Assembly (NCBI GenBank): GCA_947577075.1
Contig: CANPTW010000014.1
Location: 1 to 56,209 of the forward strand
Direction: 5' to 3'
Length of the DNA stretch: 56,209 nt
DNA from: an uncultured Oscillibacter sp.
GTDB taxonomy: Bacteria; Bacillota; Clostridia; Oscillospirales; Oscillospiraceae
The translations under genes and the position numbers were made by a program. Below are positions 4,794-21,566 of the stretch, piece by piece (position 1 is the first letter of the stretch; each line of letters starts with the position of its first letter). Below the pieces are notes generated by a model. It saw nothing but the letters and a program-made list of their open reading frames with translations, ran no database searches and was not told the DNA's origin.

Positions 4794-5019
4794 CCGGCCC
4801 TTCGGGCGGGGAGGAATGCAGCTATGATGATAGCTGGGCAATGCACCCCCCATTCTCTCTTTTGCGAAAAGAGAGAATGCGCCGTGCACGGTGGAAGAGA
4901 GAAAACGGGGGCGCGCAGGCAGTGCCTCCGGTTCCAGGCATATCTTCTGCCCGCGGCGGGGTGCGGGCGGGGGTTTGTCCTGTGAAGAATCGTCTGCCCT
5001 TCTCTTTCCGCTGCCGCTA
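4794..5019 (+). repeat. Long repeat arm L1 (type A)
   Basis: About 226 bp. In order it carries an outer CCGGCCCTTCGGGCGGGG hairpin, a TATGATGATAGCTGG segment, a near-perfect hairpin built from ATTCTCTCTTTT and AAAAGAGAGAAT, the palindrome CCGTGCACGG, and an inner end reading CTTTCCGCTGCCGCTA. It is inverted relative to the arm at 5619-5843, and most of its length matches. It contains apparent open frames, but these recur only because the DNA repeats. Confidence 0.85.
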
Positions 5020-5056
5020 ACCTGGCGGTAGGGGCGGGTTCTGCTCCCCGCGGCTC

Positions 5057-5311
5057 CTACAGGCGGCCTAGGGTGATGCCTATGGACAGGGCGCTGCAAA
5101 AGGACGCCTCGTCTTCTAAATGCACGACCTCCAGCTTCTGCGTCAACAACGCGTCCAGATGCTTTTCCTGCTCCGCCGTCAAAGTCGACCGGAATGCCTC
5201 CCAGCCCCTCTCCATATCAGACACCATCTGCCGGTATTCCGCTGTCTGGAGATACTGGAAAACTTGGTTTTCCTGGGCGTGAAAATAGAGGCCTTCAATA
5301 AGAGACTGCAC
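5057..5311 (-). CDS. Small DUF6809-like protein
   Basis: An 84-residue acidic helical protein, first residues MQSLIEGLYFHAQENQV and ending SFCSALSIGITLGRL. The N-terminal SLIEGLYF and C-terminal xSFxxAxxxGxxLG patterns match the DUF6809-like small proteins common in Firmicute accessory DNA. I chose the GTG at 5311 because AAAGGGGTGA sits 7 nt upstream and the promoter at 5352-5380 excludes longer starts. It is divergent from the XRE gene and lies inside the L1/R1 repeat pair. Function unknown. Confidence 0.65.
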   Translation of the reverse strand: MQSLIEGLYFHAQENQVFQYLQTAEYRQMVSDMERGWEAFRSTLTAEQEKHLDALLTQKLEVVHLEDEASFCSALSIGITLGRL

Positions 5312-5351
5312 AAAATCACCCCTTTTGATGCGCATCGTTTGGATATATTTT

Positions 5352-5380
5352 AGTATACTCATACCAGGATGAATTGTCAA
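5352..5380 (-). promoter_or_regulatory. Promoter of the DUF6809-like gene, facing the XRE start
   Basis: On the minus strand: TTGACA, 17-nt spacer, TATACT. The -35 lies only 19 nt from the ATG of the divergent XRE gene, so a protein bound here could control both directions. Confidence 0.8.
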
Positions 5381-5399
5381 GAGATATCAGGAGAAAAGT

Positions 5400-5621
5400 A
5401 TGAGCAGTTTTTCTGAGAATTTAAAGGTATGCAGAAAGCGCCGCCGTGAAAGCCAAGAGGTTGTCGCCGTGCGCTGCGGCATTGCGGGCGGCACTTACCG
5501 CCGCTATGAGTCCGGAGAACGGGAGCCGAGCCTCTCTATGTTCTGCGCGTTTGCCGATTACTTCGGCGTAACCCTGGACCAACTGGCGGGGCGTGAGCCG
5601 CTGCCGTTTGGGGAAGACTAG
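5400..5621 (+). CDS. Small XRE-family regulator (module 1)
   Basis: A 73-residue protein that is essentially one lambda-repressor-type helix-turn-helix (residues ~7-62; VAVRCGIAGGTYRRYESGER) with a short tail, GVTLDQLAGREPLPFGED. AGGAG precedes the ATG. The tail GVTLDQLxGRxPLP is shared with both XRE proteins of module 2 at 12573 and 12828. The TAG stop lies inside the inner end of repeat arm R1, so gene and arm are physically joined. Likely controls its own divergent promoter region. Confidence 0.85.
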   Translation: MSSFSENLKVCRKRRRESQEVVAVRCGIAGGTYRRYESGEREPSLSMFCAFADYFGVTLDQLAGREPLPFGED

Positions 5622-5843
5622 CGGCAGCGGAAAGAGGAGGACAGGCGATTCTTCGACCGCCAAAACCCCCGCCCGATCTACGCCGCGGGCTGGAGACATG
5701 CCTGGAACCGGAGGCACTGCTTGCGCGCCCCCGTTTTCTCTCTTCCACCGTGCACGGCGCATTCTCTCTTTTCGCAAAAGAGAGAATGGGGGGTGCATTG
5801 CCCAGCCATCGCTGACCACCAATCCGCCCCGCCCGAAGGGCGA
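5619..5843 (-). repeat. Long repeat arm R1 (type A, inverted)
   Basis: The reverse complement of L1 with near-identity through the ATTCTCTC hairpin, CCGTGCACGG palindrome and GGGGGCGCGC segment. Its outer end (CGCCCGAAGGGCG) lies 37 nt before the obgE start. L1 and R1 together bound a 1.05-kb cassette. Confidence 0.85.
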
Positions 5844-5880
5844 GTACAACCCCCCTCTTTTGGGAAAAAGGAGATTCCAA

Positions 5881-7161
<1,281 letters not shown>

Positions 7162-7163
7162 AA

Positions 7164-7193
7164 AACGAGAGGGACGTCCGTCCCTCTCGTTTG
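7164..7193. terminator. Bidirectional terminator after obgE
   Basis: ACGAGAGGGAC / GTCCCTCTCGT stem with A-rich and T-rich flanks. It lies between the convergent obgE and chromate-transporter genes. Confidence 0.8.
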
Positions 7194-7211
7194 CTTATGG
7201 GAGCAGGCCCT

Positions 7212-7823
7212 TCACGCCCCGGCGAAGCCGAAGGCCACGCCCACCGCGGCGGACAGGCCGATGAACACGATGGGGTGGAGCCCCGTGATCTTCTTGGGCG
7301 CAAAGTTGGTCAGCACGATCAGCACCGCCGCCAGGAGAAGGCCCGGCACGTTAAACAGGCTCCCCCCGCCGAGGACGGGCGCCTTCACCAGCCCCCCCTC
7401 CCCGGCGACGAGCTGGACGCTGGTCAGAACCTCCAGCACCACCGCCGCGCAGGCCGCGCCGATGAGCCCCGTGGAGGCGGGGCGGAGGCCGTAAAAGGCC
7501 CGGTCCACATAAGGGTTGTTCCGGAAGCTGTGGAGCACCGCCGCCACAATGAGGATGACGATGATGGAGGGGGTGATCTCCCCCAGGGTGGCCACCACCG
7601 CCCCCGGGATTCCCGCGGCAGTGAAGCCCACGTAGGTGGCCATGTTGATGCCGATGGGGCCCGGCGTGGACTCGGACACCGCCAGCATGTTCATCAGGTC
7701 CGTGTAGGTGTACCAGCCCGTGGACTCGCCGATGGCCTGGAGAAAGGGCAGGGTGGCCATGCCGCCCCCCACGGCGAAGAGCCCGGTCTTGAAAAACTCC
7801 CAGAAGAGCCGCAGATAGATCAT
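7212..7823 (-). CDS. Chromate transporter family protein, second half
   Basis: A 203-residue integral membrane protein (about six hydrophobic segments) of the short CHR family. The diagnostic GLFAVGGGMATLPFLQ and ESTPGPIGINMATYVG motifs are visible. Firmicutes often encode the transporter as two such halves. The start at 7823 overlaps the upstream half by ATGA. The transported anion is not proven; chromate or sulfate are family guesses. Confidence 0.9.
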   Translation of the reverse strand: MIYLRLFWEFFKTGLFAVGGGMATLPFLQAIGESTGWYTYTDLMNMLAVSESTPGPIGINMATYVGFTAAGIPGAVVATLGEITPSIIVILIVAAVLHSFRNNPYVDRAFYGLRPASTGLIGAACAAVVLEVLTSVQLVAGEGGLVKAPVLGGGSLFNVPGLLLAAVLIVLTNFAPKKITGLHPIVFIGLSAAVGVAFGFAGA

Positions 7824-8380
7824 GCCCGCTTCGCCTCCAGATTCTTCAAAATGATGCCCGCCGCCGCCGCCGCGACGACGAACCACACCGGGGAGAGCTT
7901 TAAAAACAGGCCCCCCAGAAGGACCGCCGCGAAAATAACCGCCGTCCGCTTATCCACCACGGACTTTTTCAGCAGCTTGAGCACGGCGTTGAAAATCAGC
8001 ACGCACACGCAGACCTGGATGCCCGCGAAGGCGTTCTTCACCCAGGCGAGGTCGGCGAAGTTGGAGATCAGCCCCGCCAGAATGGAGATGATGACCACGG
8101 AGGGGAACACCAGCCCCAGGGTGGCGGCAATGCCCCCCGAAACGCCCCCGCGCTTCTGCCCGATGAAGGTGGCCGTGTTGACGGCGATGATGCCCGGGGT
8201 GCACTGGCCGATGGCGTAGTAATCCGTCAGCTCCTCCTCGGTGGCCCAGTCCTTGTTGTCCACCACCTCCCGCTGGAGAATGGGCAGCATGGCCATGCCC
8301 CCGCCGAAGGTCATGACCCCCATCTTCGCAAAGGTCCAGAAGAGCTCCCAGAGCTCCCGGAATTGGTTCTTTTCGTTCAT
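7820..8380 (-). CDS. Chromate transporter family protein, first half
   Basis: A 186-residue CHR-family membrane protein with the paralogous motifs GVMTFGGGMAMLPILQ and QCTPGIIAVNTATFIG. The ATG at 8380 follows AAGGAGAG. It is paired with the gene at 7212-7823, and the two halves likely form a heterodimeric carrier. It lies 66 nt downstream of birA on the same strand and may be in one transcript with it. Confidence 0.9.
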   Translation of the reverse strand: MNEKNQFRELWELFWTFAKMGVMTFGGGMAMLPILQREVVDNKDWATEEELTDYYAIGQCTPGIIAVNTATFIGQKRGGVSGGIAATLGLVFPSVVIISILAGLISNFADLAWVKNAFAGIQVCVCVLIFNAVLKLLKKSVVDKRTAVIFAAVLLGGLFLKLSPVWFVVAAAAAGIILKNLEAKRA

Positions 8381-8446
8381 AAGCGCCTCTCTCCTTACAG
8401 CCTGCATGCCCCCCCGGCGCCGTCCGCGCACCGGGGACGCAGGTTC

Positions 8447-9448
8447 TTATTCCGTATAGCCCCACAGTCCCCGGACGGACACCTCGCCGGAGCGGACCGT
8501 CCGCTCCCGGCCATCGGCCCCCCGGACCACCAGGCTGAATTCCTCGTCCACGTCCACCGCCTGGGCCGTCTCCCGCGCTCCCCCGCCGAAGGGGATGAGC
8601 TGGACGGTCTTCCCCAGGTTCACGCAGCGGCGGCGGTAGGCCGCCCGGTACGCCGACAGGTCCCCCGCCAGCAGCGCGGCATAGGCCCGGTCCAGCTCCT
8701 CCAGCAGCGCCGCCGCCAGCCGGGGCCGGGACACCGGCCTCCCCAGGACCTGGAACAGGGACGTGGCCATCTCCCGGACCTCCGGGGAGAAGTCCTCCGG
8801 CCCCTGGCCCACGTTGATCCCAATGCCCAGCACCAGGGACTGGACCCGGCCGCTCTCCGCCTCCAGGGACAGCTCCGTCAGGATGCCGCAGAGCTTCTTC
8901 CCGTTTAAAACCGGGTCGTTGGGCCATTTCAGCCCCGGGCGGAGGCCGCAGACCCGCTCCACCGCGGCGCACACCGCCACCCCCGCCAGGGCCGTCGCCG
9001 GCGGCAGGCGGTCCGGCGGCAGCGGGGGCCGCAGGAGCACGGACAGGTAAATCCCCTGCCCCCGGGGGGACTGGAAGGAGCGGTCCATCCGCCCCCGGCC
9101 CGCCGTCTGGCTGTCGGCGACGGCGACCGTGCCGTCGGGGGCGTCCGCCTGGGCCTTCAGATAGGTGCTGGTGGAGTCCAGCTCCGCGAAGCACCGCAGC
9201 TCCCGGCCCACGATATGGGTCTTCCCCAGGAAGCTCCGGATCTCCGGCTCCGTCAGGGCGTCCGGCGCGGCCAGCAGGCGGTAGCCCAGGCCCGTCCGGG
9301 CTTCAATCTCATAGCCCTCCCGCCGCAGGGCGTCCACCGCCTTCCACACGGCGGCCCGGCTGAGGCCCAAACGGCGGCTCAAATCCTGGCCGGAGAGGAA
9401 CGCCTCCCCGTTCCGCAGCAGCGCCAGCACGTCTTCCCGGCTGCTCAT
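8447..9448 (-). CDS. birA: Bifunctional biotin ligase/repressor BirA
   Basis: A 333-residue protein. An N-terminal winged helix (residues ~1-60, LSRRLGLSRAAVWKAVDALRREGY) binds DNA. A catalytic BPL domain carries GRGRMDRSF (the biotinyl-AMP loop), SPRGQGIYLSVLLRP and KWPND, and an SH3-like C-terminal domain follows. It attaches biotin to carboxylase carrier proteins and probably represses biotin genes. The ATG at 9448 follows AGGAGGG. Confidence 0.95.
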   Translation of the reverse strand: MSSREDVLALLRNGEAFLSGQDLSRRLGLSRAAVWKAVDALRREGYEIEARTGLGYRLLAAPDALTEPEIRSFLGKTHIVGRELRCFAELDSTSTYLKAQADAPDGTVAVADSQTAGRGRMDRSFQSPRGQGIYLSVLLRPPLPPDRLPPATALAGVAVCAAVERVCGLRPGLKWPNDPVLNGKKLCGILTELSLEAESGRVQSLVLGIGINVGQGPEDFSPEVREMATSLFQVLGRPVSRPRLAAALLEELDRAYAALLAGDLSAYRAAYRRRCVNLGKTVQLIPFGGGARETAQAVDVDEEFSLVVRGADGRERTVRSGEVSVRGLWGYTE

Positions 9449-9474
9449 AGCATCCCTCCTTCTCAAGCGGAATC

Positions 9475-9503
9475 AGTGTAGCACATTTTTCCGGGCCTGT
9501 AAA
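9475..9503 (-). promoter_or_regulatory. Promoter of birA
   Basis: Minus strand: TTTACA, 17-nt spacer, TACACT. Confidence 0.6.
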
Positions 9504-9581
9504 TACGGCAGCCCCCCGAAATGGGCGCCGCCCCCGGAAATGGGGAAAGCCGCCCGGCCGGAGGGGCCCGCCAAAGACGGA

Positions 9582-9616
9582 CGGGCGCCCGGAATCCCAT
9601 GATTCCGGGCGCCCGC
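9582..9616. terminator. Strong hairpin after trxA
   Basis: A long CGGGCGCCCGGAATC stem with a short loop, between birA and trxA. There is no clear T run on either side, so the terminator call is moderate. Confidence 0.45.
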
Positions 9617-9627
9617 TGCGCCATGTG

Positions 9628-9945
9628 TCACAGGGCCTTGCGGAGCGTTTCCTCATAGATCTCCATGGGATAGGCCCCGATTTTCCGGTCGAACTCCCGG
9701 CCCTCCTTCAAAAAGACCACGGTGGGGATGCTCATCACCCCGAAGCGCTCCGCCAGCTTCGGCTCCTCGTCCACATTCACCTTGGCCACCAGGGCCTTGC
9801 CCTCGTACCGGGCGGCCAGGTCCTCCATCACCGGGCCCACCATCCGGCAGGGGCCGCACCAGGGGGCCCAGAAGTCCACCATGGCCAGGGGAGCCTGCCC
9901 CACCGCTCCGTCAAATTCCTCCGTCTTGATCTGCGTTACCGCCAT
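9628..9945 (-). CDS. trxA: Thioredoxin
   Basis: A 105-residue protein with the WCGPC active site in FWAPWCGPCRM and the cis-Pro motif SIPTVV. It reduces protein disulfides in the cytoplasm. It lies 22 nt downstream of the reductase-like gene at 9968, so the pair is one operon. Confidence 0.96.
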   Translation of the reverse strand: MAVTQIKTEEFDGAVGQAPLAMVDFWAPWCGPCRMVGPVMEDLAARYEGKALVAKVNVDEEPKLAERFGVMSIPTVVFLKEGREFDRKIGAYPMEIYEETLRKAL

Positions 9946-9967
9946 ATTCTTAAATCTCCTTTATTTT

Positions 9968-11897: not shown

Positions 11898-11914
11898 AAG
11901 ACGGGGGGTGTTCT

Positions 11915-12166
11915 CGCCCTTCGGGCGGGGCGGATTGCAGCTAGGATGCTAGCTGGTTCATTGCACCCCCCATTTTCTCTTTTCATTCCCGAATGAAAAG
12001 AGAAAACGGGCCGTGCACGGTCCAAAAGAGAAAAGCAAGGGGATGCGGTTACGGGGGCGCGCAAGAGCTGCCCCCGGTTCCAGGCATGTCTCCAGTCCGC
12101 GGCGTGGATTGAGCGGGGGTTTTGGCGGTCGATGAATCATCTGCCCTTCTCTTTCCGCTGCCGCTA
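11915..12166 (+). repeat. Long repeat arm L2 (type B)
   Basis: About 250 bp with the same order of landmarks as L1. The central hairpin is the B variant, TTTTCTCTTTTCATTC against its complement with a 3-nt loop, and the GCCGTGCACGG palindrome is followed by an extra ~20 bp (GATGCGGTTACGGGGG). The inner end is CTTTCCGCTGCCGCTA. Confidence 0.85.
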
Positions 12167-12201
12167 ATCCGGCGGTTGGGGAAGTCTTCCGATATCCAAT
12201 A

Positions 12202-12447
12202 TCACGGTTCCAGGAGCTCCGCCATCAGCTGCGCACCGAGGCGGACGCCGGTGTAAAAGGACTCCTCCGCCTGACGGTCCGCAAGAATGCAGATGCCTGT
12301 CTTCAGCTTTTCCGCCGCTTCTTCTTCCACCGCGCGGAGCTGTGCGGCAACATGCCGCTCCTCCGAAGTTCTGGGCTCGTCCAAACTGCAAAATGACTGG
12401 AATGAAAACGGATCGTCATGATAGATGGCACTTAAAAAGCTAGGCAT
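12202..12447 (-). CDS. Small DUF6809-like protein (module 2)
   Basis: An 81-residue acidic helical protein starting MPSFLSAIYHDD and ending AEESFYTGVRLGAQLMAELLEP, the C-terminal signature of DUF6809-like proteins. GAAAGGAG lies 7-8 nt before the ATG at 12447. It occupies the same position and orientation in module 2 as the gene at 5057 does in module 1. Overall identity is low, but both share the SFxxxxxxG ending. Function unknown. Confidence 0.68.
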   Translation of the reverse strand: MPSFLSAIYHDDPFSFQSFCSLDEPRTSEERHVAAQLRAVEEEAAEKLKTGICILADRQAEESFYTGVRLGAQLMAELLEP

Positions 12448-12526
12448 AAGAAACGCTCCTTTCAACATTACGGGAGGAATCTTTCCACCGAGTCAGTTTT
12501 ATTCTTTTTTGTTTTAACCGTTTAGT

Positions 12527-12555
12527 ATTATATCTCGATTTGCTTATCCTGTCAA
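12527..12555 (-). promoter_or_regulatory. Promoter of the module 2 DUF6809-like gene
   Basis: Minus strand: TTGACA, 17-nt spacer, TATAAT, full consensus. Its -35 is 17 nt from the divergent XRE start, the same geometry as in module 1. Confidence 0.85.
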
Positions 12556-12572
12556 GACCTTGGGGGAATACT

Positions 12573-12818
12573 ATGGAAATTTTATCTCAAAATTTATATG
12601 CTCTTCGGAAGCGGAAGAATCTCTCCCGGGAAGCTGTGGCCAGGGCCTTGGAGATGTCCGCCATGACCTACCAGCGCTACGAAAAAAATCTCCGAAACCC
12701 TACGGCCCCCACACTGATAAAGCTGGCCGACCTCTACGGCGTGACCCTGGACCAGTTAGTGGGCCGGGCGCCTCTGCCCGACGCTGCTGGTGAAAGCTCC
12801 GATCCGTCAAAACACTGA
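12573..12818 (+). CDS. Small XRE-family regulator, first copy (module 2)
   Basis: An 81-residue protein, mostly a helix-turn-helix (LSREAVARALEMSAMTYQRY) with the GVTLDQLVGRAPLP tail and a short polar end. GGGGGA precedes the ATG. It is followed after 9 nt by a second XRE gene about two-thirds identical, so this is a tandem duplication. Likely binds the promoter region at 12527-12572. Confidence 0.85.
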   Translation: MEILSQNLYALRKRKNLSREAVARALEMSAMTYQRYEKNLRNPTAPTLIKLADLYGVTLDQLVGRAPLPDAAGESSDPSKH

Positions 12819-12827
12819 AGGGACATT

Positions 12828-13055
12828 ATGGAATCTTTAGCAAAGAATTTATTTACTCTTCGAAAGCGGGAGGATATCTCCCGTGAAGCTGTCTCACGGG
12901 TTTTAGAAATGTCCGCCAGAAGTTACGAGCGTTACGAAAAAAATCTCCGGGACCCCACGGCCCCGGTTTTGGTGAAGCTGGCGGATTTTTACGGCGTGAC
13001 CCTGGATCAGCTGGTAGGCCGGGCGCCCTTGCCTCCGGCGGAGGAGGAGCGCTGA
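12828..13055 (+). CDS. Small XRE-family regulator, second copy (module 2)
   Basis: A 75-residue protein (ISREAVSRVLEMSARSYERY helix-turn-helix; GVTLDQLVGRAPLPPAEEER tail). It is nearly collinear with its neighbour at 12573, differing mainly at scattered positions and the C-terminus. Two divergent copies could form homo- or heterodimers on the shared operator; this is inference. Confidence 0.85.
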   Translation: MESLAKNLFTLRKREDISREAVSRVLEMSARSYERYEKNLRDPTAPVLVKLADFYGVTLDQLVGRAPLPPAEEER

Positions 13056-13071
13056 CGGAGGGCATCCCCCT

Positions 13072-13100
13072 TTGACAAAAGGCGGCGGTTCTGCTATGGT
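13072..13100 (+). promoter_or_regulatory. Promoter into the structured non-coding segment
   Basis: TTGACA, 17-nt spacer, TATGGT, directed into a segment with no gene. Confidence 0.7.
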
Positions 13101-13231
13101 TTGCATAGAGGGGCGCTGTTATATAAATCCCCAAAAGCGTATTGACCGTCCGGATGGTCCCCGAACGGTCAACATAGTTCGCTATTAGATCGTATGGGCT
13201 GACCGCCGTGTGACAGCGCCCTTCTATGTTC
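13101..13231. ncRNA. Structured non-coding segment between two convergent promoters
   Basis: Terminal 16-nt arms (13104-13119 and 13213-13228) pair with a single wobble. An inner TTGACCGT / ACGGTCAA stem (13142-13149, 13165-13172) lies inside. Similar promoters point inward from both sides, so the inverted symmetry extends through the promoters (13072-13259). It could be a MITE-like insertion or a structured RNA made from either strand. No Rfam family was recognised. Confidence 0.5.
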
Positions 13232-13259
13232 ATTATACCAAACCGGCCCGCTTTGTCAA
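13232..13259 (-). promoter_or_regulatory. Minus-strand promoter into the structured segment
   Basis: Minus strand: TTGACA, 16-nt spacer, TATAAT. Confidence 0.7.
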
Positions 13260-13301
13260 GAGCCCCAGTGCCGGAATCCGGTCTTCCCCGGCGCGCCGGG
13301 T

Positions 13302-13556
13302 TAGCGGCAGCGGAAAGAGAAGGGCCGGCGATTCCTCGACCGCCAAAACTCCCGCCCGCACCGCGCCGCGGGCAGAAGATATGCCTGATATGGGGGGCAC
13401 CTCTTGCGCGCCCCCGTAACCGCGTCCCCTTGTTTTTCTCTTTTGGACCGTGCACGGCCCGTTTTCTCTTTTTATTCGGGAATAAAAAGAGAAAATGGGG
13501 GGTGCAATGAACCAGCTATCATCATAGCTGAACCCCACCCCGCCCGCAAGGGCCGG
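13302..13556 (-). repeat. Long repeat arm R2 (type B, inverted)
   Basis: The reverse complement of L2 in landmark order: TAGCGGCAGCGGAAAGAGA inner end, GTTACGGGGG-type segment, GCCGTGCACGG palindrome, AAAAGAGAAAA hairpin, TAGCTATCATCATAGCTG-type segment and CGCCCGCAAGGGC outer end. It bounds module 2 on the recR side. Confidence 0.85.
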
Positions 13557-13615
13557 AAAACCTCCCCCCGCCCGCCAGGGCCGGAAAACCTCCCCCCGCC
13601 CGAAGGGCCGGAAAA
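13541..13615 (+). repeat. 28-bp tandem repeat, about 2.7 units
   Basis: Units start at 13541, 13569 and 13597 and read CGCCCGCAAGGGCCGG followed by AAAACCTCCCCC with small changes. The unit is the outer end of the long repeat arm, so the arm terminus has been tandemly expanded just before recR. Confidence 0.85.
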
Positions 13616-13658
13616 ATCCCCCCCTCCCCGGAAGGGGAAGGAGAACAGGAGCCCCCCT

Positions 13659-14258: not shown

Positions 14259-14351
14259 CTTGACGGGGCGGCGGAATTTTGCTGTCTTGAAGATACGAGG
14301 ATGCCGCAGCAATTGCGGCTGGCCCTATGGGTTTGGGCTTCCAACGAATTA

Positions 14352-14381
14352 GAAACCGTCACCGTGCCGGGTGGCGGTTTC
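14352..14381. terminator. Hairpin overlapping the end of the micro-gene
   Basis: GAAACCGTCACC / GGTGGCGGTTTC, 12 bp with one wobble. No good T run follows, so it may protect the RNA end or act as a weak terminator. Confidence 0.45.
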
Positions 14382-14436: not shown

Positions 14437-14550
14437 GCAGCCGCACCTCCTTTCGGAGGGACCGCCCGGCCGCCTGAACCGAAGAAGCGGTACCAATAGG
14501 CGCCGGCACACATCCTGCCGCCAGAATACCGCAGCCTTTGACAAAACGCA

Positions 14551-14573
14551 GGGCCCGGCGCTCGCGCCGGGCC
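14551..14573. terminator. Terminator of the SLH glycosidase gene
   Basis: A GGCCCGGCGC / GCGCCGGGCC stem with a short loop. T-rich sequence follows on both strands. Confidence 0.7.
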
Positions 14574-14602
14574 TTGCTTTCATGCTTGCAGGAAAGCGCC
14601 TC

Positions 14603-17600
14603 TCACAGCATGGTGTACAAAATCTTCGCCATCTGTCCCCGGGTGATGTTGGCCTGGGGGCGGAAGGTGCCGTCGGCATAGCCGCTGAGGATGCCCTGGG
14701 AAACCATGGTGCGGATGTAGAAGGAGGCGTAGCCGGGGATTTTGTCCGCGTCGGCAAAGGTCAGGTCCGCCAGGGCGTAGCCCTTCTCCTGGGACCGCCC
14801 GATCATGGCCGCCGCCTGGGCCCGGGTCAAATTCCCGGCGGGGTTGAAGTGGAGCTTCCCGTCTTTGCCCTGGGTTCCGGTGATTACGCCCTCCTTGTAA
14901 AGCGCCCGAATGGCGGGCAGGGCCTCCGCCGGAATCTTATCCAGGTCCGCGAAGGGCAGGGCCGCTTCCGCGTACTTCGCCGGGTCCAGCTTCAACGCGT
15001 TGTAGAGCATGACGGCAAAGTCCAGCCGGGTCAGGAGGTCGTCGGGCCGGAAGGTCCCGTCCGTATAGCCCCCGGAGATGCCCCGGTTGTACAGGAAGTC
15101 GCAGTAGTCCGCCCCCCAGTACTCCGCCGTGTCCGTGAACTTGTGCTCCGCGCCCTGGGCGGGGATCTCCACGGAGCAGCGCCCGATGTTGCCGGAGCGG
15201 TCCCGGGCGGTAACGGTAACCCGGCCCAGCTCCCGGCTCTCCCCGGGGCCGGGGAGGCTCACGGTAAACCGGCCCGTGGCGGGGTCGTACTCACCCAGGG
15301 GGGACCCGTCACAGGTGATGCGCACGTCCTCCGCCGGGAGGATGCCGTCCACGGCGTCGGTGATGGTTCCGGCGACGGTCCACTCCTCCTGGTTCAGCTC
15401 CGCCGTGATCACCGGGGCCTCGTTGTCCACGATGCCGTCAAAGGTGGCTGCCACCTGGTCCAGATAGATGGTCCCCTTGCCGGAGCCGCTGACCTCCAGG
15501 CCCCGGATGGTCATGCCCGGGGTCAGGCCGTTTACGGACGCCTGCTTCCAGCCGGAGACGTCCAGGGTGGTCAGGGGCAGGGCCTGGATCTCCTCCTCGC
15601 CGACGGAGCAGAGGAGGGACAGGGTGTTGCCCGAGCCGTTGCTGTCCACCCAGAGGTTCAGCCCGGTGTAGGGCTCCTTCAAAACGGCGGGCTGGGACGT
15701 GGCGTTCCAGCGGGCGGGGCCCTCGCTCAGGTCATAGTCCAGCCTGCCGGAGGCCCGGCCGAAGCGGACATAGTTCCCGTCCCGGTTCAGGCTGAAGGAA
15801 GCTCCCTCGCCGGAGCCCCGGAAGATGGTGGTTTCGCCCTCGAAATCCTCCAGAGTCTCCAGGTGCCGGGTGGAGACGGTCACGTCGATAGAGGCGCTCT
15901 GGGTCCCGGCGGAGACGGTGATTCTCCCCGTTCCCAGGGCCGCGGCGGTGAAGAGGCCCGTCTCGTCGATGGTCCCAATGTCCCCCTCCACGCTCCAGGA
16001 GAAGGCCGCCGGGTCCGCCTTCAGGGGCAGGTGCTTGTAGGCGGCGGAGCCGTGGAGCTGGACGGAGGCCCCGGGGGAGGCGGTGAGGCTGGTGATGATG
16101 GTGTTCTGCTCGTCCCGCACGGCCACCGCCCCCGGCGCGGCGACGGCGTGGACCACGGTGCTGCCCTCGCCGCCGCTCCCCTGGGCGGTAACGGTGACGT
16201 CCCCGCCCTCCAGGGGGGTGGTCAGCACATTGCCCGTCAGGGTCCCGGCGGAGGCGAAGAGCTCGCAGTACTCGTCCATGGGGATAAAGTTCGTGTCAAT
16301 GGCGGAGGCGGAGATCTCCACGCTGCTTCCCGCCAGGACATAGTCGTGGTCCGCGCTGACGTGGAAGTGGTCCAGCTGCCCGGTGGGCTGGCTGGAGGCC
16401 ACCAGAAAGACCTGGTTGGACACGGAGCGCTCCTTCCCGTCGGAGGGAATGTTAATCCGCCGGGCGGCGTACTCCGTGGGCTTGGTGACGGTCAGCGTGG
16501 TGGACCCGCCCCCGTCCAGGCAAAGGGCGCTGACGCAGCCCAGCTCGATGAGCCGCTGGGCCACCTGGGTCATGGTGGCGCCGATGGAGTGGCCGGACTT
16601 CCGGCCGTCCATGGTGTAGAAGATCAGGCTTCCGTCATAGCGCTGGCCCACGGCGGTCCGGGGGGCCGCCCCGCTGGGGAGCCCGGCGCACACCGCGCCG
16701 TTTTCCACCAGGGCGTAAAGACTGCCCACGGCGTACTCCACGTCGTTCCACCCGGGGTCGGGGGCGGAGGCGGTCACGGTGAGGAGGGTCCCGGCGGGGA
16801 TGGCGCGCAGCGTGTTCAGCGCCGTCTCTCCCGCCTTGGCGTTGGCGGTGAGGACCACCTGGCCCGCCCCCATCACCGTGGGAGAGGCGGCCTCCGGCTC
16901 CTCCGTCCGCTCCACCCGGAGCGTCATGGAGCCTCCGACGGAAAGCGCCCCCTCTTCAACGGTGCAGATCACGTCTACCCCGGGCTGGGTGCTGCCGGTG
17001 GTGTGGGCGGCGTTGAAATCATAGGTGTAGAGAAAAATCCCGCTCTCCGTCCGGGCCTTGTTGACGGCGGCGACCCGGAAGGACTTGTCCACCGTCTCCC
17101 CGGTGCCGTCGTAGAGAGGGGTCCCCGCCTCGTCCAGCAGGGGCTCTCCGGTCTCGCTGAACAGGGGCTCCCCGGTGCCGTCCCGCCCGGTGTAGTGAAC
17201 GCCCACGGAGATTCCCGGCTTCCCCAGAACAGCGGTCCCGTCGGCCCGGAAGCCGATGGCGTGATATCCCCCGTCGCTGGAGCGGAGCCGCCCCTGGGTG
17301 ACCACGAGGCCGATGGGCAGGCCGTTGTTCACATTGTAAAAATCGCCGTTGATCCCGGCCACCACCCGATAGCCCTGGGATTCCAGCGCCGCGGCGGTGT
17401 TGGACACGGTGCTCCGGTCCGTCAGCACGCCGCCGTAGGTGACGATGGGGGTCACGGAGTCGTTGGGCGTGTATGTAATCAGGTTTTCCGTCCGGTAGTC
17501 GGAGCTGACGCTGCTCCAAAAGACGTTGGTGGACAGCTGGGTCTGCCGGTTGAGCAGCGTGTCCGCCGCGGTCAGGTCGTCCCCCATGGCCTGAGAGGCC

Positions 17601-17677
17601 AGGGCGGGAGTCGCCAGGGCGGACAGCAGCGCCAGCGTCAGGAGCAGGGACAGCGCTCTGGGAAAAAATTGTTTCAT
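14603..17677 (-). CDS. Exported phosphodiester glycosidase-domain protein with three SLH domains
   Basis: A 1024-residue protein with a signal peptide (KQFFPRALSLLLTLALLSALATPALA). A NAGPA/phosphodiester glycosidase-type domain lies at ~60-430 (GINGDFYNVNNGLPIGL; SALCLDGGGSTTLTV). Ig-like and carbohydrate-binding-like beta domains occupy the middle, and three S-layer homology repeats fill the last ~190 residues (GGYTDGTFRPDDLLTR; SGYADGTFRPQANITR). It is probably held on the cell wall through SLH binding to secondary polymers and trims a surface glycan phosphodiester. Substrate unknown. Confidence 0.9.
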   Translation of the reverse strand: MKQFFPRALSLLLTLALLSALATPALASQAMGDDLTAADTLLNRQTQLSTNVFWSSVSSDYRTENLITYTPNDSVTPIVTYGGVLTDRSTVSNTAAALESQGYRVVAGINGDFYNVNNGLPIGLVVTQGRLRSSDGGYHAIGFRADGTAVLGKPGISVGVHYTGRDGTGEPLFSETGEPLLDEAGTPLYDGTGETVDKSFRVAAVNKARTESGIFLYTYDFNAAHTTGSTQPGVDVICTVEEGALSVGGSMTLRVERTEEPEAASPTVMGAGQVVLTANAKAGETALNTLRAIPAGTLLTVTASAPDPGWNDVEYAVGSLYALVENGAVCAGLPSGAAPRTAVGQRYDGSLIFYTMDGRKSGHSIGATMTQVAQRLIELGCVSALCLDGGGSTTLTVTKPTEYAARRINIPSDGKERSVSNQVFLVASSQPTGQLDHFHVSADHDYVLAGSSVEISASAIDTNFIPMDEYCELFASAGTLTGNVLTTPLEGGDVTVTAQGSGGEGSTVVHAVAAPGAVAVRDEQNTIITSLTASPGASVQLHGSAAYKHLPLKADPAAFSWSVEGDIGTIDETGLFTAAALGTGRITVSAGTQSASIDVTVSTRHLETLEDFEGETTIFRGSGEGASFSLNRDGNYVRFGRASGRLDYDLSEGPARWNATSQPAVLKEPYTGLNLWVDSNGSGNTLSLLCSVGEEEIQALPLTTLDVSGWKQASVNGLTPGMTIRGLEVSGSGKGTIYLDQVAATFDGIVDNEAPVITAELNQEEWTVAGTITDAVDGILPAEDVRITCDGSPLGEYDPATGRFTVSLPGPGESRELGRVTVTARDRSGNIGRCSVEIPAQGAEHKFTDTAEYWGADYCDFLYNRGISGGYTDGTFRPDDLLTRLDFAVMLYNALKLDPAKYAEAALPFADLDKIPAEALPAIRALYKEGVITGTQGKDGKLHFNPAGNLTRAQAAAMIGRSQEKGYALADLTFADADKIPGYASFYIRTMVSQGILSGYADGTFRPQANITRGQMAKILYTML

Positions 17678-17721
17678 AGGGGGCCTCCGTCTCGTGCAGA
17701 AAAATGAATCGAACGCCTTTT

Positions 17722-17750
17722 ACCATAGCACAAACCGGAGGGAAAGTAAA
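17722..17750 (-). promoter_or_regulatory. Promoter of the SLH glycosidase gene
   Basis: Minus strand: TTTACT, 17-nt spacer, TATGGT. Confidence 0.55.
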
Positions 17751-17897
17751 TGACAATTCGTAAACAAAATCCGACGGGGCTTCCTGGTTTTCCCAGCCCC
17801 GCCGTCCCGCCCCGGCGGAAGCGCCGCCCCCGGCTCCTCCGGGCTGGACAAACGGCCCCGGATGCTCTATCATAAAAGCGGAAAGGAGGGCGTTTCT

Positions 17898-18080
17898 ATG
17901 ACCGTCACCGTGGACGCCGGGCGCTGCATCGCCTGCGGCATGTGCGCCTATGCCGCGCCGGAGGTCTTCCGCATCGTCGGGAAATCCTCCACCGTCGCCG
18001 CCCAGCCGGAGGGGCCGGACAGCCGGGTCCGGGACGCCGCCAACGGCTGCCCCGTCAACGCGATTTCCATCCAAACGTAA
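17898..18080 (+). CDS. Single-cluster [4Fe-4S] ferredoxin
   Basis: A 60-residue protein with cysteines at 10, 13, 16 (CIACGMC) and 51 (GCPVNAI), enough for one [4Fe-4S] cluster, as in the Thermotoga/Desulfovibrio type. A small cytoplasmic electron carrier. GAAAGGAGG precedes the ATG. It is a single-gene transcript ended by a very long hairpin. It could serve the hydrogenase or the reductase at 9968, but no link is visible. Confidence 0.9.
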   Translation: MTVTVDAGRCIACGMCAYAAPEVFRIVGKSSTVAAQPEGPDSRVRDAANGCPVNAISIQT

Positions 18081-18083
18081 GGA

Positions 18084-18124
18084 CCTGGGGAGGGCCCCTG
18101 CCGCCGGCAGGGGCCCTCCCCAGG
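18084..18124 (+). terminator. Long hairpin after the ferredoxin gene
   Basis: A perfect ~19-bp stem (CCTGGGGAGGGCCCCTGCC and complement, 3-nt loop) followed by CTTTCG. Very stable, with a weak T run. Confidence 0.7.
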
Positions 18125-18186
18125 CTTTCGAAAAAAACGGACTTCCGGCGGAAGGGCGGCGCGTTCCGGAAAAACCCGGAAAGAGC

Positions 18187-18606
18187 TCAGCGGCCCTTGT
18201 GCTTTTCCTTTCGCTTCTCCCGCCGGAGGGCAAACTTGCGCGCCTCCTCCGTCTCCCGCTGCTCCCGGCTCCGGCGGGCCCGGGCCGCCTTCCCCGCTTC
18301 CCTCTGGAGGGCCAGCGCCTGCTGCGCCCTGGTGCCCATGGCGGCGGGACGGGTTTCCCGGCGGGCCTCCCGAAGGGCCCGCTTGGGGCTGACCCGCCTC
18401 TCCGGCGGGGATTCCCCCGGAAGGGACGGGCTGAAGGGCAGATGCCGCCAGCGCTCCAGCAGGAAGGCGTATACCTCCTGCTCCCCCGGCTCCGCGCCGA
18501 AGACGATCCGGCAAGCCTCATAGGTTCCCCCGCCGCCCCGCTCATAAAGGCAGGTCCAAAAGGGGGCCTCAAAGCGGACGGTCAGTCTTGCGTATCCTGT
18601 TTCCAT
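18187..18606 (-). CDS. yjdF: YjdF family protein (DUF2992)
   Basis: A 139-residue protein starting METGYARLTVRFEAPFW. A short beta domain contains ACRIVFGAEPGEQEVYAFLLERW, the DUF2992 signature, and a long very basic tail ends REKRKEKHKGR. AAGGAGG precedes the ATG. YjdF genes in Firmicutes are often controlled by the azaaromatic-sensing yjdF riboswitch, and a ~130-nt structured leader is present here. Biochemical role unknown. Confidence 0.85.
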   Translation of the reverse strand: METGYARLTVRFEAPFWTCLYERGGGGTYEACRIVFGAEPGEQEVYAFLLERWRHLPFSPSLPGESPPERRVSPKRALREARRETRPAAMGTRAQQALALQREAGKAARARRSREQRETEEARKFALRREKRKEKHKGR

Positions 18607-18735
18607 GCGTATTCCTCCTTTTTGTGTCTCCCGCGGAGAACGGACAACCAAAGGAGGCAGGTTACTGGCGCTCCGGCGGGGCGCAGGCGCCGGGGCACGC
18701 CCGGACTACCAACCGGGCCGTGTTTTTATCTCCGC
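18607..18735 (-). promoter_or_regulatory. Candidate yjdF riboswitch leader
   Basis: The ~129-nt leader runs from the predicted transcription start to the yjdF ATG. It contains paired GCCCGG / CCGGGC (from GGCCCGGTTGGTAGTCCGGGC) and a strong GGCGC/GCGCC stem. The call rests on gene identity and leader length; the consensus was not checked computationally. Confidence 0.5.
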
Positions 18736-18741
18736 CCTTCC

Positions 18742-18770
18742 ATCATAGCGGAAGCGCCGCCAAAACGCAA
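18742..18770 (-). promoter_or_regulatory. Promoter of yjdF
   Basis: Minus strand: TTGCGT, 17-nt spacer, TATGAT. Confidence 0.65.
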
Positions 18771-18815
18771 GGGGCTTTCCCGCCGGGGAAAACCCCGGGG
18801 GGAGGCGCTCCGCCC

Positions 18816-19319
18816 TCAATAGGCGCTGATGCCCAGGCTCTCGTCGTCCTCCCCCTTCTCAATGGCCCGGATTTCCACAAAATACTTCAGGTCCGGGCCC
18901 ACCTCCACCCGGACCCGCTCCCCGGCCCGGCGGCCCAGGAGGGCCCGGCCCACCGGGGATTCCTTGCTCACCAGGCCCTTCAGCGCATCCTGGCGCAGGG
19001 TGGTGACGATGCGGACCTCCATCTCCTTTTTGGCCATCTCGTTGTAAATCGTCACCCGGTCGAAAAGGCCCACGGCGTCCGCCGCCCCCTCCACCTCGAT
19101 GACCTTCGCCGTGCGGATCATCCGCTCCAGATAGCGGATGCGGCTCTCGTTCCGGTTCTTCGCCTGCTTGGCGCACTTGTACTCAAAGTTTTCGCTGAGG
19201 TCCCCGAAGGCCCTGGCGGTCTGCACCTCCTCAATCAGTTCCGGCCGCAGGACCCGGATCCGGTGGTCCAGCTCCTCCCGCATTTTTTTGATATCCACAG
19301 CCGTCAGCTCGTCATACAC
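18816..19319 (-). CDS. greA: Transcription elongation factor GreA
   Basis: A 167-residue protein with an N-terminal coiled coil and C-terminal FKBP-like domain. The tip motif is FGDLSENFEY, keeping the Asp/Glu that reach the polymerase active site. The C-terminal SPVGRALLGRRAGERVRVEV segment is typical. It rescues backtracked RNA polymerase by stimulating transcript cleavage. It starts with GTG 8 nt after AAGGAGG. Somewhat divergent, so it could be one of two paralogues in this genome. Confidence 0.92.
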   Translation of the reverse strand: MYDELTAVDIKKMREELDHRIRVLRPELIEEVQTARAFGDLSENFEYKCAKQAKNRNESRIRYLERMIRTAKVIEVEGAADAVGLFDRVTIYNEMAKKEMEVRIVTTLRQDALKGLVSKESPVGRALLGRRAGERVRVEVGPDLKYFVEIRAIEKGEDDESLGISAY

Positions 19320-19351
19320 GGCCCATTCCTCCTTCCAAGCGTCTGCCGTCC

Positions 19352-19380
19352 ATCATAGCCTCTCCCGCTCCCCCTGTCAA
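19352..19380 (-). promoter_or_regulatory. Promoter of greA
   Basis: Minus strand: TTGACA, 17-nt spacer, TATGAT. Confidence 0.75.
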
Positions 19381-19387
19381 GCCGCCC

Positions 19388-19416
19388 TTGACGGCGGGGC
19401 GGCGGGATGTTATCCT
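19388..19416 (+). promoter_or_regulatory. Promoter of yqeC-yqeB
   Basis: TTGACG, 17-nt spacer, TATCCT. It is divergent from the greA promoter only 8 bp away. Confidence 0.6.
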
Positions 19417-19447
19417 ATAGAAAGAACAACGAAAGGGAGGGGCCTCC

Positions 19448-20122
19448 ATGCGGCTGTCCGAACTGCTGAACGTCCGCCCCGGCGTCACCGCCGTCATCGG
19501 CGGCGGCGGGAAAACCACCCTTCTGCGGGTCCTGGGGGAGGAGCTGGCCTCCGGCGGGGCCCGGGTCCTCCTCTGCGCCACGGCGAAGTTTTTCCCCTTT
19601 GACGGCCTCCCCTGCCTGCCCGACCCCACCGTGGAGGCCCTGGAAGAGGCCCTTGCGTCCCGCCGCCTGGTCTGCGCCGGAACGCCGGTCCCCGGCACGG
19701 GGAAGCTCACCGCCCCGGCGGTTCCCATGGCCCGCCTGGCGGAGCTGGCGGACTACGTGCTGGCGGAGGCCGACGGTTCGGCGGGCCGCCCCCTGAAGGC
19801 CCACGCCCCCCACGAGCCGCCGGTCCCCCGGGAGGCGGGTCAGGTGATCTGCGTGGTGGGGGCCTCCGGCTTCGGCCGTCCCATCGGGGAGGCGGCCCAC
19901 CGCCCCGGCCTTTACGCCCGCCTGGCGGGGGTTGGTGAGGCGGCGTTCGCCTCCGTGGAGACGGAGGCGGCGGTGCTGCTGGCGGAGGGGCTCCACAGCC
20001 GGGTGTTCATCAACCAGGTTGAGACGCAGGAGGACCGGGGGCGAGCCTCCTCCCTGGCGGCGAGGCTGGACTGCCCCGCCGCGGCGGGGGCGCTGCTGAG
20101 AAAGGAGTTTGCACCATGCTAG
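19448..20122 (+). CDS. yqeC: Selenium-dependent hydroxylase maturation protein YqeC
   Basis: A 224-residue P-loop protein (IGGGGKTTLL, residues ~17-26) with a YVLAEADGSAGRPLKAHAPHEP motif characteristic of the YqeC family. YqeC genes co-occur with selD and yqeB in genomes with selenium-labile molybdenum hydroxylases. AGGGAGG precedes the ATG. It overlaps yqeB by 7 nt. Confidence 0.88.
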   Translation: MRLSELLNVRPGVTAVIGGGGKTTLLRVLGEELASGGARVLLCATAKFFPFDGLPCLPDPTVEALEEALASRRLVCAGTPVPGTGKLTAPAVPMARLAELADYVLAEADGSAGRPLKAHAPHEPPVPREAGQVICVVGASGFGRPIGEAAHRPGLYARLAGVGEAAFASVETEAAVLLAEGLHSRVFINQVETQEDRGRASSLAARLDCPAAAGALLRKEFAPC

Positions 20123-20907
20123 TCGTCATTCGAGGAGCCGGGGATATTGCCACCGGCATTGCCCTCCGGCTCCGGCGGGCGGGAATCCGGGTGGTCATGA
20201 CGGACCTGGAGCAGCCCACTGCCATCCGCCGGACCGTGGCCTTCTCCCAGGCCGTGGTCCACGGCGAGGCCGTGGTGGAGGACGTGACCGCCCGGCGGGC
20301 GGAGTCCCCCGCCCAGGCCCTGGAGCTGCTGAAAAGCGGCGTCATCCCCGTGCTGGCGGACCCGGAGGGGGCCTGCGTCCCCGTTCTGCGGCCCCAGGCG
20401 GTGGTGGACGCCATCCTGGCAAAGCGGAACCTGGGCACCCGGATCACCGACGCCCCGGCGGTCGTCGGCGTGGGGCCCGGCTTCACGGCGGGGGAGGACT
20501 GCCACGCCGTGGTGGAGACTATGCGGGGCCACTACCTGGGCCGGGTGCTCTACAAGGGCGCCGCCCAGCCCAACACGGGCATCCCGGGCCTCATCGGCGG
20601 CTTCGCCGGGGAGCGGGTCCTCCGGGCCCCGGCGGACGGGACCTTTCACCAGCTCTTGGACATCGGGGCCCGGGTGAAGCTGGGGGACGTAGCCGCCGAG
20701 GTGGCGGGCGCGCCTATGGTCTGCACCCTGGACGGGGTGCTCCGGGGCATTCTGCCGGAGGGGACCCCCGTCCGCAAGGGGATGAAGGCCGGGGACATCG
20801 ACCCCCGGTGCAAAATCGAGCACTGCTACTGCGCCAGCGACAAGGCCCTGGCCGTAGGCGGCGGGGTGCTGGAGGCGGTGCTGGGGCTGACCAAGGCGAT
20901 GGAATAA
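20116..20907 (+). CDS. yqeB: Selenium-dependent molybdenum hydroxylase system protein YqeB
   Basis: A 263-residue protein of the EF2563/YqeB family. It has an N-terminal Rossmann-like VVIRGAGDIATGIALRL and a conserved PNTGIPGLIGGFAGERVLRAP segment, then a biotinyl-like C-terminal half (GVLRGILPEGTPVRKGMKAGDIDPR). It is linked by genome context to SelD-dependent molybdenum hydroxylases; exact chemistry unproven. It overlaps yqeC, and selD lies 700 bp downstream beyond repeat pair 3. Confidence 0.88.
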   Translation: MLVVIRGAGDIATGIALRLRRAGIRVVMTDLEQPTAIRRTVAFSQAVVHGEAVVEDVTARRAESPAQALELLKSGVIPVLADPEGACVPVLRPQAVVDAILAKRNLGTRITDAPAVVGVGPGFTAGEDCHAVVETMRGHYLGRVLYKGAAQPNTGIPGLIGGFAGERVLRAPADGTFHQLLDIGARVKLGDVAAEVAGAPMVCTLDGVLRGILPEGTPVRKGMKAGDIDPRCKIEHCYCASDKALAVGGGVLEAVLGLTKAME

Positions 20908-20960
20908 GAGGGGGCTTTTCAAGCCAAAGGGGCTTGGGGGCGCCCTGGCGGGCAGGTTTT

Positions 20961-21185
20961 CCGGCCCTTCGGGCGGGGCGGATTGCAGCTATGATGATAG
21001 CTGGTCCAATGCACCCCCCATTCTCTCTTTTGCGAAAAGAGAGAATGCGCCGTGCACGGTGGAAGAGAGAAAACGGGGGCGCGCAAGAATTGCCTCCGGT
21101 TCCAGGCATATCTTCTGCCCGCGGCGTGGTGCGGGCGGGGGTTTGTCCTGTGAAGAATCGTCTGCCGTTCTCTTTTTGCTGCCGC
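20961..21185 (+). repeat. Long repeat arm L3 (type A)
   Basis: About 225 bp, nearly identical to L1 through the TATGATGATAGCTGG segment, ATTCTCTC hairpin, CCGTGCACGG and the GTTTGTCCTGTGAAGAATCG segment. The inner end is slightly degenerate (TTTTTGCTGCCGCA). Confidence 0.85.
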
Positions 21186-21313
21186 ACTGCCGACCGTACT
21201 TTAGAACTGCTTCTACCGCTTCCTCTTTCGGTTCCGGCGTAAAGCCTGGTTCCCTTCGGGGAACAAAGGATAGCCCAATTCAACCTCAGCCAGTCCGCCG
21301 CAACCGCCCGCAT
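21186..21313. other. 128-bp residual cargo of repeat pair 3
   Basis: No XRE or DUF6809-like gene is present. A small hairpin (GGTTCCC TTCG GGGAAC-type) occurs near 21248-21264. It may be what remains after cargo loss, or an unrelated cargo. Confidence 0.4.
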
Positions 21314-21566
21314 AAGCGGCAGCGGAAAGAGGAGAGCAGTCGATTCTTCGACCACCAAAACCCCCGCTAAACCTACGCCGCGGCCCGAAGATATGCCTGA
21401 TATGGGGGGCAGCCCTTGCGCGTCCCCCGTCCCCCGTAAAGCGGTTTTTCTCTTTTGGACCGTGCACGGCCCGTTTTCTCTTTTTGGCGCAACCAAAAAG
21501 AGAAAATGGGGGGTGCAATGCACCAGCCATCGCTGGCTGCCATTCCGCCCCGCCCGCAAGGGCGAG
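21314..21566 (-). repeat. Long repeat arm R3 (type B, inverted)
   Basis: It carries the B-type AAAAGAGAAAATGGGG hairpin and the extra spacer found in L2/R2, while its partner L3 is type A. The outer end lies 43 nt before the selD start. Confidence 0.85.

Follow-up and report, generated by a model that had tools for sequence, protein, structure and literature searches.

Dispersed palindromic elements with mirror-keeping, potentially triplex-forming ends in Oscillibacter and related Oscillospirales

Three paired-arm elements in the Oscillibacter window

The window analysed in this study (56,209 nt, positions 1 to 56,209 of the forward strand of contig CANPTW010000014.1, assembly GCA_947577075.1, from an uncultured Oscillibacter sp.) carries six repeat arms of 240-275 bp, which are arranged as three head-to-head pairs upstream of obgE, recR and selD and are treated here as the ends of three palindromic elements. 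These gene names were taken over from an earlier reading of the sequence (hereafter the original prediction), without a family search of our own. Inverted-repeat and profile analyses of the window bore out the six arms and their three pairs as first described, with inverted repeats of up to 258 nt at 88% complementarity and 148 nt at 94%, and the shared order of landmarks was recognised in all six. The arms also lie close to their neighbouring genes as had been proposed, though at slightly different distances: with arm limits set by profile, the left arms begin 5, 6 and 42 nt past the upstream stop codon, and the right arms stop 24, 90 and 31 nt before the starts of obgE, recR and selD, respectively. 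No transposase open reading frame (ORF) was found inside the three elements, in keeping with the earlier description of the cassettes.

Each arm comprises, in order, an outer GC hairpin, a hairpin P1, a conserved TGCACCCCCCA joint, a hairpin P2 formed by a pyrimidine tract (Y1), a loop and a purine tract (R1), a hairpin P3, and a second purine tract (R2). The 16-nt P3 segment starts one base after R1 and is followed by R2, which is R1 read backwards. A perfect hairpin of Y-rich and R-rich halves had been noted before; this hairpin is real, but it makes up two thirds of the feature, the mirrored third tract having been overlooked. R2 mirrors R1 in all six window arms, in runs of 11, 11, 12, 12, 11 and 14 nt, and the Y1, R1 and R2 tract is A/T-rich, its purine strand being A-rich with isolated G residues.

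Element 1 is bounded by two type I (GCG..TGG) arms. Its left arm (4782..5026, plus strand) contains a putative triplex unit at 4853..4905, in which Y1 (4853-4863), R1 (4867-4877) and the P3 hairpin (4879-4894) are followed by R2 (4895-4905), an exact 11-nt mirror of R1, and the TGCA partner of the P3 loop lies at 4842-4845, also on the plus strand. The right arm (5614..5856, minus strand) carries Y1 at 5776-5786, R1 at 5762-5772, P3 at 5745-5760 and R2 at 5734-5744. Between the arms stand two divergent genes that are both read outward. One encodes a DUF6809 protein (5057..5362, minus strand, towards the left arm; 34.4 bits with a cut-off of 27), its coordinates being those of the longest frame and its start codon provisional; the other encodes a small XRE-type helix-turn-helix (HTH) protein (5400..5621, plus strand; HTH_31 and HTH_3), and the right arm overlaps, at its inner end, the stop codon of this gene.

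Element 2 has two type II (GGG..TCC) arms. In the left one (11903..12173, plus strand; Y1 11973-11988, R1 11991-12006, P3 12008-12023, R2 12024-12039) the mirror runs for 12 nt, is interrupted by a C opposite a T-A inversion, and then resumes, and in the right one (13295..13568, minus strand; Y1 13480-13495, R1 13462-13477, P3 13445-13460, R2 13429-13444) the mirror run is also 12 nt. The interior carries a gene for a DUF6809-like protein (12202..12468, minus strand, start codon provisional), which at 25.5 bits falls slightly under the cut-off of 27, and two tandem copies of an XRE HTH gene (12573..12818 and 12828..13055, both plus strand). Element 3 combines a type I left arm (20950..21193, plus strand; Y1 21021-21031, R1 21035-21045, P3 21047-21062, R2 21063-21073) with a type II right arm (21309..21578, minus strand; Y1 21493-21506, R1 21474-21487, P3 21457-21472, R2 21443-21456; mirror run 14 nt), and a mere ~120 nt separate the two.

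The mirror rule and the pseudoknot

The mirror relation was followed across copies in 173 parsed arms (2 of 175 had no recognisable hairpin and were dropped), in a set of 137 (2 of 139 with a stem below 8 were dropped), and in alignment A1, which consists of 50 arms picked from 75 of 128 distinct arms. Among the 173 distinct arms, the run of parallel complementarity between Y1 and R2 averaged 12.1 nt, compared with 5.0 nt (sd 0.26) when R2 was shuffled among arms, and the corresponding values for 73 unique combinations were 10.7 and 4.4; mutual information mostly peaked on the diagonal at variable positions. A mirror of R1 fitted R2 better than a direct copy in 133 of the 137 arms with a stem of at least 8, with 3 ties and one worse fit, and among unique arms it did so in 65 of 68; 1076 of the 1096 triplet cells over the first eight positions of these 137 arms were T-A:A or C-G:G. 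The ten pairs of hairpin P2 showed no one-sided change and a single unpaired cell in A1. Parallel Y1-R2 columns were paired in 98.5% of cells, and their covariation (0.633, compared with 0.320 after shuffling) was reached by none of 500 shuffles, while all six slides scored lower; a second and weaker Y1-R2 block had a covariation of 0.408 (0.220 shuffled), again reached by 0 of 500 shuffles.

Hairpin P1 has been swapped wholesale in many arms with its stem retained (164 of the 173 parsed arms have a stem). The TGCA loop of P3 is complementary to a TGCA directly before CCCCCC in 118 of 139 arms, and the two sites have changed together in others, TCCA occurring with TGGA in 3 arms, while 8 arms combine TGCG with CGCC and so pair at three of four bases; eight further arms have a change on one side or use another frame, and 97% of the loop/joint cells are paired in A1. 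These patterns suggest that the P3 loop and the joint form a pseudoknot, which would hold P3 at the foot of P2, where a third strand must enter.

A scan of the fetched DNA that was blind to the motif returned 331 pyrimidine-rich hairpins. Behind them, starting 1-32 nt on, came an asymmetric mirror 9-mer in 108 cases, an asymmetric direct copy in 5 and only symmetric matches in 7. Since the scanned DNA had been fetched mainly for its arms, these counts test the rule and not its genomic frequency.

Distribution and sequence families

An arm used as query gave 57 match rows in its own genome, some of which represent the same hairpin on the opposite strand, and several of which lie at contig ends, as is usual for repeats in short-read assemblies. 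A covariance model built from 50 arms had 28 hits in this genome. Of the 61 genomes of the genus, this one among them, the model hit 46, and in each of two it gave at least 63 hits. With 57 match rows and 28 model hits in one genome, the arm is not a chance sequence. By BLAST, the arm was found in 25 of 36 other genomes of the genus and in 0 of 23 genomes of other genera; the covariance model, applied over the order, hit 6 of 295 genomes (own included). A pattern scan of named genomes returned at least 116 stretches, and the 80 listed were labelled Oscillibacter, Dysosmobacter, Oscillospiraceae and, once, Clostridia. Pairs of arms are present on contigs of the cultured isolate Oscillibacter sp. 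1-3.

Beyond the genus, clear hits were obtained in two other genera of the same family (at least 13 in genome G342 and 7 in G131; G and L numbers are our handles for genomes and fetched loci), and G272, from a different family, gave weak model hits that were convincing when inspected. In G342, eight stretches have both ends, one end being of the CCAAACC type and the other of the CCAGGACC type (once CCAAGACC), and each end type has its own Y1, R1 and R2, which are mirrored. The arms of G131 and G272 differ in their surrounding P1/P3 stems and retain the mirror. These three families were found with a model containing R2 columns, which gives them a slight lean towards the mirror rule. Weak model signals in G052 and in G095 were set aside, the former for want of a proper hairpin and the latter, two hits, because the match lies behind a tRNA-like sequence (judged by eye), although a partial mirror is present there as well (L342).

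The arms of the window, of element 1 and of six relative loci matched no Rfam family at the gathering score, and chance-level matches alone appeared when this was relaxed. One arm searched in distant mode against phage and plasmid collections, and element 1 searched in near mode only against an E. coli collection, gave no match. A single arm core occurs at the end of a contig from a viral collection (L156, 6622-6678), which may be host DNA. Literature searches turned up no paper describing these elements, and a search for DUF6809 yielded no papers; the portions of PMC7283042 considered here mention Oscillibacter only as assemblies.

Pairing, site occupancy and dispersal

Neighbouring arms less than 3 kb apart were convergent in 59 of 67 pairs, divergent in 5 and same-way in 3, and the last three look like split hits of single arms. 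These counts cover the window and loci L009-L028 and L040-L155; all fetched loci together gave 256 arms, some of them overlapping. The cores of convergent pairs lie 278-1719 nt apart, and all 59 interiors are distinct. A family of many copies with paired arms, as first proposed, was supported by the match rows in the own genome and by these neighbour pairs.

Presence or absence site by site among relatives, which had also been anticipated, was likewise observed. A motif search found an arm upstream of selD in none of 28 fetched relative loci (27 genomes), and in the nearest species (G015, G033, G005 and G060) the same upstream gene lies 45-49 nt from selD, compared with 706 nt in the window. 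At recR, an arm is present in 6 of 30 fetched loci (the window, G005, G060, G033, G001 and G006), one locus being cut by a contig end, and rpe stands immediately upstream, at 10-71 nt, in 8 of the 30. At obgE, arms occur in 3 of 30 fetched loci (the window, G005 and G033), some of the 30 being cut.

Eleven elements of G071 have a core spacing of 403-405 nt, are 86-99% identical (mean 93%) and lie in mostly unrelated flanks, with their two inner halves occurring in either orientation. As L351 and L352 have ~50 nt of right flank in common, one of the two lying next to an assembly gap, at least ten of the eleven sites are separate; among the matches listed, 3 of 22 outer ends deviate from the shared end. 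It follows from the occupied and empty sites of different species and from these eleven similar copies that the elements disperse. No parent transposon was recognised, as the clusters formed by 115 ORFs from the 59 pairs (cores at most 1.7 kb apart), which were read by eye and of which the smallest were partly seen, held no transposase-like ORF.

Beyond the conserved ends of the G071 copies (L344-L353), an outermost hairpin was noted by eye, whose stem sequence varies from copy to copy and whose stem is often kept. Inner arm halves also occur in tandem, at L014 2914-3039 and at L015 4825-5121 (174 nt apart in L015).

Passenger genes and other features of the window

The original prediction had described the elements as carrying small regulators; that such carriage is their essence found no support. 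A sequence search with eight queries found an XRE gene in 15 of the 59 pairs, 8 of these with a DUF6809-like partner, and neither gene in 44. Conversely, an arm lay nearby in 4 of 30 fetched DUF6809 loci and the other 26 had none, in a sample picked by score, in which weakly scoring arm-borne copies are under-represented. Since such genes also stand alone, the XRE/DUF6809 genes are passengers or neighbours, that is, optional cargo and not the essence of the elements. Upstream of a gene that we take from its sequence to be trmFO-like, G015 has an XRE gene immediately adjacent and no arm, and G000 has an arm between the two.

XRE genes were further seen by eye immediately upstream of the trmFO-like gene or recR (L013 1849-2093, L324 ~2023-2088 and, at recR, L232). 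Across species, the trmFO and recR sites hold either the gene module or arms, and an XRE gene there has one arm or none.

The tandem XRE duplication of element 2 spans 12551-13033 and is 76% identical. Inside the same element, 13056-13270 forms a second, unlike long palindrome with a predicted fold of -84.9 kcal/mol and, by eye, promoter-like sequences at both ends that face each other; partial relatives of it occur in L129 and, in other species, at recR (L217, L218). Immediately beyond the right arm of this element, at 13535-13644, lie 28-nt units that repeat the outer GC hairpin in tandem, with an A-rich tail. Elsewhere in the window, an azaaromatic (yjdF) riboswitch was identified at 18624-18739 on the minus strand (75.9 bits, gathering score 45).

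Interpretation and alternative explanations

The repeats are dispersed, they pair convergently, their sites are polymorphic, and Y1, R1 and R2 co-vary three ways both within and between families; the structure and dispersal of the family are well supported, it extends throughout the genus, and its three-strand signature is unusually clear. Taken together, the arms probably belong to non-autonomous, dispersing palindromic elements of ~0.6-2 kb with triplex-capable ends, which depend on an enzyme in trans and carry XRE/DUF6809 genes as cargo. A single-stranded arm could fold back on itself with R2 placed along the P2 duplex as the third strand, one strand giving a class II purine-motif triplex and the complementary strand a class IV pyrimidine-motif triplex, in the nomenclature of Holder 2015 (PMC4666352). 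We know of no duplex pairing that accounts for a mirror relation kept by compensatory change, whereas a triple helix requires exactly this. Being A/T-rich with isolated G-C pairs, the tract suits a pyrimidine motif more than a purine one. The triplex may arise in transiently single-stranded DNA, such as the lagging strand or an excision intermediate, where the two folded ends could be recognised by the enzyme acting in trans.

Several observations weigh against this explanation. The formation of a triplex in the cell is predicted from sequence, and no candidate for the mobilising enzyme was found besides RAYT/TnpA-like genes. Solo arms occur. The target duplications that had been anticipated did not rise above shuffled pairings, the longest repeat across the flanks averaging 5.6 nt in both the real and the shuffled sets, in a test of 25 elements with an anchorable outer hairpin, whose true ends may differ. 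Wobble pairs give contradictory answers on which strand folds, T.G exceeding A.C in P1 and A.C standing at the hairpin base, and one P3 pair is G.T in 50 of 50 arms of A1. A measure of further pair types was no higher than in shuffles, for hairpin and parallel columns alike, and the count of pairs changed on both sides was reached by 285 of 500 shuffles for the first parallel block and by 21 of 500 for the second. On the automatic alignment A1, P1 was paired in only 64% of cells. Arm L099 (1 of 137) keeps the hairpin and has no mirrored R2, and R2 has been replaced in 1 of 173 arms, so an arm can persist without the mirror. Finally, the kinship of copies within a genome makes sequence counts exaggerate the number of independent changes; as this relatedness inflates the covariation tests, the families in other genera carry more weight.

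A different function for the same structure would be that the arms work as RNA, with complementary-strand transcripts, which would run out of the passenger genes or across the element, folding into a pyrimidine-motif triple helix (Y2.R1-Y1) and a pseudoknot that stabilise or terminate RNA; we regard this as rather unlikely. Cargo genes are indeed read outward into the arms, and a pyrimidine motif accords well with a tract that is rich in A/T and contains isolated C. At the base of the hairpin, type I arms have A-T and most type II arms A.C, which become A-U and G.U only if the complementary strand is the RNA. Weak hints come from the 15 cells with T in R1, where R2 has C in 4, T in 10 (positions 9-12) and A in 1, and from the C opposite an R1 T in both arms of element 2; on the complementary strand such a C is a G on a T-A pair, a favoured third base. 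Moreover, pyrimidine-type triplexes form in RNA too and purine-type ones do not, according to the portions of Holder 2015 (PMC4666352) considered here and below. However, no cargo gene was recognised in 44 of 59 pairs, convergent pairing would be needless for an RNA gene, and no Rfam match reached the gathering score. The first eight P2 pairs contain no G.U or U.G in up to 173 parsed arms, although an RNA hairpin would tolerate them, and in 50 of 50 arms the other strand has G.T as the P3 pair beside CCG. We also considered that the arms might be immobile structural sites maintained by host selection, for replication pausing or as barriers in the nucleoid or to transcription, given that DNA polymerase is blocked in vitro by BoxC/PIT elements, alongside which no mobile elements were found (PMC4666352). 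Similar copies in unrelated flanks, polymorphic occupancy and the lack of a clear flanking gene orientation bias (22 classifiable of 51 pairs, 29 being unclassifiable) make this very improbable.

Mobilisation as REPIN-like elements, by a REP-associated tyrosine transposase (RAYT) that recognises the folded arms as single-stranded DNA, would agree with inverted, structured, intergenic pairs in which no target duplication was found. Within the genus, 18 of the 46 genomes with arms gave RAYT/TnpA-like hits (NF047646, E<=0.001), compared with 0 of the 15 without arms (Fisher p=0.003, not corrected for kinship), and a number of these hits (G007) fit IS200-type TnpA better. Nevertheless, the family cut-off was passed by 1 of 41 genomes in one search and 0 of 29 in another, and there was no hit in G071 (95% complete, at least 63 arm hits), G342 and G131 (both 100% complete), nor in G000 (83% complete) and G272 (71%), where absence says less. 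Hits also occurred in three arm-free genomes of other genera, and among four genes inspected, three adjoin apparent topoisomerase-subunit genes and none has an arm in its locus. Not found in G071, G342, G131 and others and present in arm-free genomes, RAYT is not required, and this route appears improbable. Hardly any credence is given to a regulatory or toxin-antitoxin-like cassette, in which the XRE/DUF6809 pair would be the functional unit and the arms operators or terminators. The divergent XRE/DUF6809 layout recurs inside elements, and in other species these trmFO and recR sites are held by an XRE gene (by eye) that is armless; yet most pairs have no such gene, most fetched DUF6809 loci have no arm, and the gene-free copies of G071 show arms dispersing without genes.

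In three species, a REP-type transposase-like gene lies in the same place beside apparent type II topoisomerase subunit genes and is armless (L255, L257 and L258); it looks like a settled gene.

Comparison with known systems

Miniature inverted-repeat transposable elements and mobile insertion cassettes resemble the elements described here in their inverted-repeat ends, dispersal, optional cargo and lack of an own transposase. Unlike them, our elements have ends that are long multi-hairpin structures, and neither a parent transposon nor a target duplication was found. With REPIN/BIME sequences they share inverted pairs of structured repeats, an intergenic location, non-autonomy and the absence of a detected target duplication, and the inverted-repeat doublet is the unit in both (59 of 67 pairs); however, they are far longer and triplex-capable, and several copy-rich genomes have no RAYT hit, so that a RAYT does not accompany the repeats throughout. 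Covarying hairpins and a likely pseudoknot recall the structured RNAs of Rfam, though no family there matches the arms.

The closest parallel is offered by the BoxC/PIT/TM-ECO intrastrand-triplex repeats of Enterobacteria, known from E. coli, on which Hoyne, Maher and others reportedly worked earlier. The arms have the Y-loop-R-linker-R order of these repeats, in which the second purine block can be placed against the first (class II), and they are likewise intergenic, present in tens of copies and arranged in close inverted pairs that are mostly convergent. In the portions of Holder 2015 (PMC4666352) considered, E. coli K-12 has 23 BoxC copies, among which 5 close inverted pairs each join a type A to a type B copy, and no mobility genes were found near BoxC. 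By the coordinates of Table 1 of that paper, four of the five pairs are convergent (sense left, antisense right) and the fifth is opposite; the hrpB-mrcB pair is convergent when read in sequence. BoxC differs in being 34-37 nt long and G/C-rich, with a 3-nt linker and doublets tens of nt apart, whereas the arms are ~240-275 nt long with an A/T-rich tract and a 17-nt linker that holds a hairpin with a pseudoknot partner, and whole elements reach 0.6-2 kb, at times with genes. The arms thus show the Y-R-mirrored R layout of class II and not the G/C-rich BoxC consensus; their mirror runs of 11-14 nt fit the class II limits published there, the 17-nt R1-R2 linker of the window arms does not, and three G272 arms have linkers of 2-5 nt. 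Loops in the published BoxC search were limited to 1-6 nt, so that a search of that type would miss arms whose linker is 17 nt long.

In our view the elements of the Oscillospirales are a variant of the BoxC kind that is larger, A/T-rich and able to carry cargo. It is possible, though we put it forward only tentatively, that there is a general class of bacterial mobile palindromes in which both ends adopt a three-stranded fold as single-stranded DNA and are recognised in that form. The elements of the Oscillospirales and the BoxC doublets of E. coli would be two branches of this class, with no apparent sequence kinship, both being convergent pairs of mirror-rule hairpins, and the enzyme moving them would be one for which recognition of triplex DNA has yet to be described. 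Well over 100 distinct copies, and several sequence families with hardly anything in common besides the rule, keep three strands matched by compensatory change, which is the evolutionary trace expected of a functional fold, and such mirror-keeping ends provide a route to testing whether three-stranded structures matter in living bacteria. The convergent pairing in common with BoxC links an old puzzle to a mobile-element setting and suggests concrete mutants.

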